From NCBI GenBank assembly GCA_003819975.1, contig RPPU01000366.1:1-5075 (forward strand): a DNA stretch of 5,075 nucleotides. Reading direction: 5' to 3'. Source of the DNA: Desulfobacteraceae bacterium (lineage in GTDB: Bacteria > Desulfobacterota > DSM-4660 > Desulfatiglandales > HGW-15). The notes beneath the pieces are model-generated. The model was given only the letters and a program-made list of their open reading frames with translations, did not search any database and had not been told where the DNA came from. Made by a program: the position numbers and the translations under genes. This document shows, piece by piece, positions 1,135-4,369 of the stretch (position 1 is the first letter of the stretch; every line of letters begins with the position of its first letter).

Positions 1135-1692
1135 TTAGAACTCGAGGATCTCTTTCTCCTTGATATGCAAAACCTCGTCGACCTTTTTAATGAATTCGTC
1201 GGTTATGGTTTGAACATCTTCCTGGCACTTGAAAAATTCGTCTTCGGAAATATCCTTCTAGTTCTTCAGTTCTTTGAATAATTCATTGGTTTCGCGGCGT
1301 TGGTTGCGCAACGCGACCTTGCTCTCCTCGGCGATTTTTTTGGCCAACTTGGCCAGTTCCTTGCGGCGTTCTTCGGTCAAAGGCGGGATGGGAATCCGGA
1401 TCATCTTACCGTCATTGACCGGATTCAAACCGAGTTCCGATTTTAAAATGCTCTTCTCAATGGCGGCGATAATGCCGGTATCCCAGGGTTTGATGGTGAT
1501 CAGCCTGCTTTCCGGAACCGATAAAGAGGCCACCTGGTCCAATGGCATCAGGGTGTCATAGCAATCCACCCGGATCCCGTCCAGCAAAGCCGTCGAAGCC
1601 CGGCCGGTCCGGACCCGCATAAAATCTTTTTTCAGCACGTCAATGGTCTTGTTCATCTTGTCTTTGAGTTCGGCAATGATTTCTGCTTTCAT
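1135..1692 (-). CDS. frr: Ribosome recycling factor, full-length frame interrupted by an in-frame TAG
   Basis: RRF acts with EF-G to split post-termination ribosomes and is normally essential. The frame from ATG 1692 reads 144 residues to a TAG at 1258-1260: VRTGRAS (27-33), LGLNPVNDG (87-95), [13 protein letters not shown] (101-113) and RNQRRETN (129-136), with R129 and R132 at the E. coli numbering. In the same frame 40 more codons follow, [16 protein letters not shown] onward, ending EILEF and TAA at 1135-1137. Counting the TAG as a residue gives 185, the E. coli length, aligned without gaps. The 40 residues supply the last long helix of the three-helix domain I, so the 144-residue product should not fold normally. 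The start ATG overlaps the pyrH TGA (ATGA), with GGGGG at 1699-1703 as a plausible ribosome binding site. Possible causes are sequencing error, recent nonsense mutation, suppression, or recoding. A gene caller would report only 1258-1692. Confidence 0.93.
1258..1260 (-). other. In-frame amber codon (codon 145) inside frr
   Basis: The plus-strand cta reads TAG in the frr frame. It sits between KELKN and KDISEDE, where E. coli RRF has the aspartate of LLKDKEISED (from memory), in the turn between two long helices of domain I. The reading frame and RRF similarity continue downstream with no shift. One substitution would turn TAG into AAG, GAG or CAG; lysine or glutamate would suit this charged turn. 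No ATG, GTG or TTG occurs in frame soon after it to restart translation. Confidence 0.92.
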
Positions 1693-4046: not shown

Positions 4047-4221
4047 TATCGACAATTTGTCGTTGATAAATGAAAATGCCTTTGTTCACTGGCCTACAAT
4101 CGTACGGATTTTGTTCCGGCGCTTTTCACTGGAACTCCTGTTCCGGCCCGCTGGAACTCCTGTTCCGGCCGGTCAAAACGGCATTTTTTTTGATCCCATG
4201 TTTTTCGGGATTAAAAAAAAT
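4047..4221 (+). repeat. Composite intergenic repeat, copy E3, with internal tandem duplication
   Basis: It begins TATCGACAATTTGTCGTTG and shares TACGGATTT next to the CCGGCGCTTT block with E1. GTTCCGGC lies at 4113-4120, 66 bp from the start (68 in E1, 63 in E2). The CCGGAA part is expanded by two 22-bp tandem units (4129-4172). The terminal palindrome has left arm 4183-4197 (A, eight T, GATCCC), 9-nt loop atgtttttc (4198-4206) and right arm 4207-4221, with one G/T wobble. Length is 175 bp, or 131 without the 44-bp duplication, matching E1 (132) and E2 (128). It lies upstream of rpsB. Confidence 0.75.
4129..4172. repeat. Two 22-bp tandem repeats inside E3
   Basis: Each unit starts CTGGAACTCCTGTTCCGGCC, identical over 20 bp at 4129-4148 and 4151-4170; the units differ at one of 22 positions. 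Each contains its own small palindrome GGAAC-tcct-GTTCC. The array replaces the simple CCGGAA hairpin seen in E1 and E2. Confidence 0.9.
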
Positions 4222-4272
4222 TTTGTAAACCTGTTTGTTTAGCATTCCCTTCTGACATTTTCAAGAAAAATG

Positions 4273-4369
4273 TTTTTTTGATCCTAAAAAAACTTAGGAT
4301 CAAAAAAAACGTCATTCCGGCAATGGTTTGAGCCGGAACATGAATTCCGCCAAAAATCGCCGAAATGAC
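4273..4369 (-). repeat. Inverted partial member of the repeat family, E4
   Basis: A perfect 15-bp palindrome (seven T then GATCCTAA at 4273-4287; TTAGGATC then seven A at 4294-4308) is followed on the plus strand by the CCGGAA part: TTCCGGC (4315-4321) with GCCGGAA (4332-4338), then a degenerate second copy (4344-4366). GTCATTCCGG (4311-4320) pairs with CCGAAATGAC (4360-4369), 9 of 10 bases. Part order is reversed relative to E1-E3, so it is in opposite orientation. The TATCGAC-headed 5' part was not found. E3 and E4 face each other with their GATCC palindromes about 50 bp apart. Confidence 0.65.

Follow-up and report, generated by a model that had tools for sequence, protein, structure and literature searches.

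In-frame stop codons in otherwise conserved frames have been described in two kinds of bacterial genes that are relevant to the locus studied here. According to excerpts of Belinky et al. (2021; PMC7918605), such stops, many of them thought to be short-lived, occur in bacterial genes whose ratio of nonsynonymous to synonymous substitution rates (dN/dS) is below 1. Besides, excerpts of PMC8318568 report pyrrolysine (Pyl) use in marine Deltaproteobacteria, with the in-frame TAG of mttB at a conserved active-site position. The present analysis concerns frr, the gene of the ribosome recycling factor (RRF) on which bacteria depend, in a stretch of 5,075 nucleotides from an uncultured, sulfate-reducer-like Desulfobacteraceae bacterium (contig RPPU01000366.1), hereafter the window. 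As in ordinary frr genes (TIGR00496 / PF01765), a full and collinear frame of 185 codons lies between pyrH and uppS; the window gene differs from them by one in-frame TAG (amber) at codon 145. It resembles the genes of Belinky et al. (2021), as far as these are covered by the excerpts, in showing no decay around the stop and differs from the example given there in that the stop was found in no orthologue examined here. It likewise resembles the Pyl-decoded mttB of Desulfobacterota (genome G458, see below; excerpts of PMC8318568) in carrying a single in-frame TAG after which a conserved frame continues to its normal end. In contrast with mttB, the frr TAG is private, stands at a variable position and belongs to a gene unrelated to methylamines. 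Most probably, the TAG reflects either an erroneous base or a damaged variant that is rare, and not a new reading of the code. A probability of about 0.72, which like all gradings below is a judgement and not a computed value, was given to the wrong base, i.e., a sequencing or consensus error or a minority base from a strain mixture rather than the true base of the population.

Codon 145 in the window and in its relatives

Translation of the minus strand (1135-1692) yielded 144 residues, TAG, 40 residues and TAA. The first 144 residues alone scored 173.1 bits against TIGR00496 (cut-off 149.1), covering model positions 1-133 of 176, and the end of the model was matched by the codons after the TAG (Table 1). 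Thus, RRF homology extends over the whole length of frr, whereas an uninterrupted frame of about 185 codons is broken at codon 145. Both halves form one collinear RRF frame, beyond chance, and the in-frame TAG is confirmed. An earlier reading of the letters alone (the sequence-only reading) had reported that a TAG at codon 145 (1258-1260) splits the RRF frame and that the 40 codons after it keep the frame, are conserved and end in TAA; both statements were borne out by the translation and by the profile matches on either side. The TAG is one base away from a codon seen in relatives.

Codon 145 was read in 54 loci of relatives (L015-L068), and all of them had a sense codon there (GAA 33, GAG 9, GAC 7, GAT 4, GGG 1), so that the alignment which the sequence-only reading had proposed at this codon returned no TAG. 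Except for L061, which ends early at a contig end, the 53 other frames reach codon 185. The underlying table held 67 rows, the 13 uncounted ones coming from seven more distant genomes, six of them entered twice; these had AAC (4), AAT (2), AGC (2), GGT (2), GAC (2) or CCA (1) at this place and no stop. Among the best 120 of 7956 frr homologues, residue 145 was E in 115, D in four and G in one, and 118 of these 120 had a full tail after it; P0093, the only one of them shorter than 150 residues, is named partial. Orthologues from other species with a stop at this position were therefore found neither among the 54 loci nor among the 120 listed homologues. To judge from these alignments, residue 145 is not fixed: almost all close relatives carry E or D, and G, N and S also occur at greater distance.

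The search was extended to 85 genomes of the order, which from the names of homologues appears to be Desulfatiglandales, and to a draw of 395 genomes of the phylum; many genomes of both sets are perhaps incomplete. In the order, frr was found in 74 of the 85 genomes (E up to 1e-10; two of the matches partial, 11 genomes without a match), as a single copy each and with no internal stop. In the phylum draw, 331 genomes matched at 1e-45 with a query that ended at residue 144, and the matches listed had no stop inside, open frames of at least 184 residues and one frr per genome at this strict limit. Within everything examined, the codon-145 TAG is thus private to the window, as far as homologous sequences tell.

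Closer homologues exist in metagenomes. Among the frr matches listed, the closest were P0001 (96%), P0002 (96%) and P0003 (90%), as compared with 81% for the best match in the 85 order genomes. P0001 and P0002, whose 96% identity refers to 144 residues, extend over the whole length, with D at residue 145 in the former and E in the latter. Before the TAG, the window differs from each of them at 6 of 144 residues; among the 40 residues after it, three differ from P0001 and one from P0002. The closest PyrH proteins are also metagenomic (P0122, 94%; P0123, 88%), and the named, more distant homologues include Desulfatiglandales, Desulfobacteraceae and Deltaproteobacteria, among others. In a midpoint-rooted tree of four genes with 53 relatives (of the 54 loci, L064, with two genes only, was excluded), the window fell inside a 13-tip clade with a support of 0.927. 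The nearest tip was L045 (genome G456), whose position as sister to the window is unsupported (0.326).

The favoured explanation is that the living population would have a normal frr, in one copy and at its full length of 185 residues, and that the TAG would be a discrepancy of one base in a single short contig from a metagenome. It may have arisen as an error of sequencing or of the consensus where coverage was low, or as a minority base picked from a strain mixture, and it would play no part in regulation or recoding. A stop results from 457 of the 11475 single-base changes that are possible in the window genes. Under assumed, not measured, rates of 1e-4 and 1e-3 errors per base, about 1.5% and 14% of such windows, respectively, would carry a false stop. 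The window was picked from a scan over many windows, which will be expected to turn up such false stops. Three points weigh against a wrong base. The conserved parts of the contig show no further lesion, which indicates that its sequence is not generally poor. An identical PyrH protein is listed on two contigs, the longest of 5075 bases, which is the length of the window and makes it probable that the window is a whole contig; if the second contig were an independent assembly with the same TAG, an error would be unlikely. Finally, the window's own frr is absent as a separate entry among the listed frr homologues. The case nevertheless offers a lesson of method: where a single private stop lies in a conserved gene, on a short metagenome contig and with clean relatives, a wrong base explains it better than recoding does.

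A possible real stop: young mutation or second copy

Signs of decay were searched for on both sides of the TAG. Compared with the frr of the nearest genome (L045), synonymous and nonsynonymous codon differences numbered 56 and 28 before the TAG (codons 1-144) and 17 and 6 after it (codons 146-185). The nonsynonymous share was higher after the TAG in six of eight pairs that include the window (e.g., L062: 14 and 16), and this rise was considered as a mark of decay. This reading was rejected, because the rise recurs in 24 of 28 comparisons between relatives, the mean nonsynonymous share going from 0.29 to 0.38 there and from 0.35 to 0.44 in the window pairs; the raised share is hence a property of the frr tail. 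Private residues at otherwise invariant columns were found in none of the window genes tsf, pyrH, frr and uppS, in alignments of 38, 31, 54 and 43 sequences, respectively, including the window (relatives of at least 58% identity and 90% coverage; rpsB was excluded, with only seven sequences including the window). Neither the relaxed selection nor the further lesions of an old pseudogene were found, and the frr frame looks, from these comparisons, constrained on both sides of the TAG. The absence of further decay claimed by the sequence-only reading therefore holds, and it leaves three options for the stop: that it arose very recently, that it is an artefact, or that it is tolerated.

Under the first of these options, the sequenced cells would truly carry the TAG, through a nonsense mutation that arose very recently in a minority lineage or was present in dying cells; these cells would then either be without working RRF or get by on leaky reading of the UAG. 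The frr frame without decay is as expected of a very young mutation, in line with the short-lived stops mentioned above. However, RRF is essential in Escherichia coli. The product would have 144 residues and lack the last 41. The 40 codons after the TAG would encode the last helix of domain I; with that helix lost, a 144-residue RRF would probably not work. Domain I is a triple-helix bundle according to excerpts of PMC9067457, and no truncation experiment on RRF was found in excerpts of PMC9067457, PMC7918605 and PMC8318568. Furthermore, a nonsense mutation of this kind was seen in no relative examined, and an assembly consensus should seldom come to show an allele that is lethal. A real mutation is consequently judged unlikely.

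The gene could also be dispensable if a second intact frr existed elsewhere in the genome, the window copy then being a fresh pseudogene. This would demand a departure from the single copy observed in all 74 order genomes with a match and, at the strict limit, in the phylum matches listed. In addition, the window frr is in its usual place: pyrH adjoins frr in 45 and uppS in 52 of the 54 relatives' loci, some of the others ending at contig ends. A second copy is thus given only a slight chance.

Pyrrolysine and other possible readings of UAG

The strongest alternative to a wrong base is that UAG is decoded as pyrrolysine, or by another tRNA with a CUA anticodon, RRF then being made at full length and carrying the inserted residue at a position where it would be tolerated. 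According to gene content, a pyrrolysine route is present in the order and in one of the 12 relatives that share the 13-tip clade with the window. PylS was above its cut-off in one of the 85 order genomes (G454), and a partial PylS lies at a contig end in the clade member, G458; PylD was above its cut-off in G454 and partial in G458. In the search with the PylS model TIGR02367, 83 of the 85 genomes matched at E up to 0.001 and one was above cut-off; the matches below it were taken as other class II synthetases, in line with controls of which 13 of 14 matched, 12 of them below cut-off. A tRNA-Pyl with a CUA anticodon was called by ARAGORN in both genomes, immediately ahead of pylS in G454 and, in G458, on the contig that carries mttB. 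The mttB of G458, with one in-frame TAG, was the sole match above the cut-off of its family among the 85 genomes. Moreover, position 145 of RRF tolerates several residues.

Pyrrolysine is therefore more plausible than the sequence-only reading could know, yet neither of the two genomes with pyl genes has a stop inside frr. Codon 145 is GAA in G454 (L058) and GGG in G458 (L060), a comparison that involves two Pyl users only. G458 moreover terminates frr with TAG, as the window terminates tsf. Only two of the 85 genomes of the order showed pyl genes, and the nearest tip, G456, was not one of them. No stable structure was found after the frr TAG (z +1.0), though insertion of pyrrolysine may need none, and an essential protein would hang on the supply of this amino acid. 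From the frequencies of 2/85 and 1/12, the prior for a Pyl host is roughly 2 to 8%, and an amber codon in an essential gene is required in addition. Decoding of the codon by pyrrolysine or another CUA tRNA is accordingly rated as quite improbable. The narrower proposal, that such decoding of an in-frame UAG takes place in the sole frr of an uncultured Desulfatiglandales-like bacterium, is marginally more doubtful still. If it were true, ribosome recycling would depend on a tRNA competing with release factor RF1, and the synthesis of a translation factor would sense the state of termination. A real TAG that is read through would represent a recoded amber in a translation factor that is essential, within an order where pyrrolysine is used sporadically (2/85), and would make a link between recoding and ribosome recycling testable.

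The pyrrolysine loci themselves comprise, in G454 (L089, contig C19), tRNA-Pyl (CUA), PylS and PylD and, in G458 (L090, contig C324), tRNA-Pyl, an incomplete PylS and the TAG-bearing mttB; the open reading frames adjoining the latter resemble corrinoid proteins, by eye only.

If this lineage had completely reassigned TAG to an amino acid, the frr TAG itself would be the only sign of it. Against it, tsf in the window ends in TAG at a length common among relatives, the gene stopping at codon 200 as in the window in 21 of 50 relatives and at codon 201 in 12. This ending supports TAG as a terminator, short of proof, since the next in-frame stop lies five codons on and read-through would add just five residues, which would be harmless. 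TAG also terminates frr in 13 of 53 relatives and tsf in 7 of 50, and RF1 was above the model cut-off in all 12 related genomes tested. To judge from the window and these relatives, full reassignment appears very unlikely. The interpretation offered by the sequence-only reading thus stood in part: a wrong base was among its options, beside read-through and a second frr, and the absence of decay was real, whereas its lean toward a functional recoded gene lacks support, given a TAG seen in no relative examined, the TAG ending of tsf, RF1 in 12/12 related genomes and a single-copy frr in 74/74.

Genomic context and minor observations

The features of the window are collected in Table 1.

Table 1. 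Positions of the genes and of the amber codon in the window.
Feature	Coordinates	Strand	Basis or remark
frr (ribosome recycling factor), 185-codon frame + TAA, single in-frame TAG	1692-1135	minus	translation; TIGR00496 matches
In-frame TAG, frr codon 145	1260-1258	minus	sense codon in relatives examined
Part of frr after the TAG, 40 conserved codons + TAA	1135..1257	minus	TIGR00496 positions 137-176, E 9.8e-9
rpsB (ribosomal protein S2), intact	3880-3020	minus	profile match
tsf (EF-Ts), TAG-terminated at length common to relatives	3015-2413	minus	in-operon support for TAG as terminator
pyrH (UMP kinase), intact; TGA overlaps frr ATG	2420-1689	minus	profile match
uppS (undecaprenyl diphosphate synthase), leaves window edge, internal stop absent	657-1	minus
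OsmC-family gene, upstream	4875-4444	minus

Several loci (L023, L027, L028, L052, L054, L055, L058 and L066) have tsf and frr and, unlike the window, no pyrH match. A stop flagged in the tsf of L017 looked like a second case of interruption; it proved to be the ordinary gene end (TGA, codon 198), and L017 is missing from the tsf alignment owing to this flag. The RF1 search also returned matches below the cut-off, probably prfB, with one in-frame stop each in G458 (contig C181), G465 (C22) and G300 (C10); the stop is TAA in two of these genomes and TGA in one, possibly marking an RF2 frameshift site.

An intergenic element is repeated at 815-895, 1066-1137, 4172-4225 and 4273-4316, one copy lying directly after frr. 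It consists of an A/T-rich stem with GATCCT/AGGATC arms, and in the two copies that were folded (z -7.6 and -8.4) this stem adjoins another one, CCGGC/GCCGG; the element is like a repetitive extragenic palindrome or a terminator. A pattern drawn from it was not found in 12 related genomes with up to 3 mismatches. At a relaxed threshold, Rfam returned two matches far short of their gathering scores (38.5 bits against 140 and 24.6 against 44), which were taken as chance. Upstream of rpsB, an exact repeat of 20 bases occurs at 4129-4170, with starts 22 bases apart.
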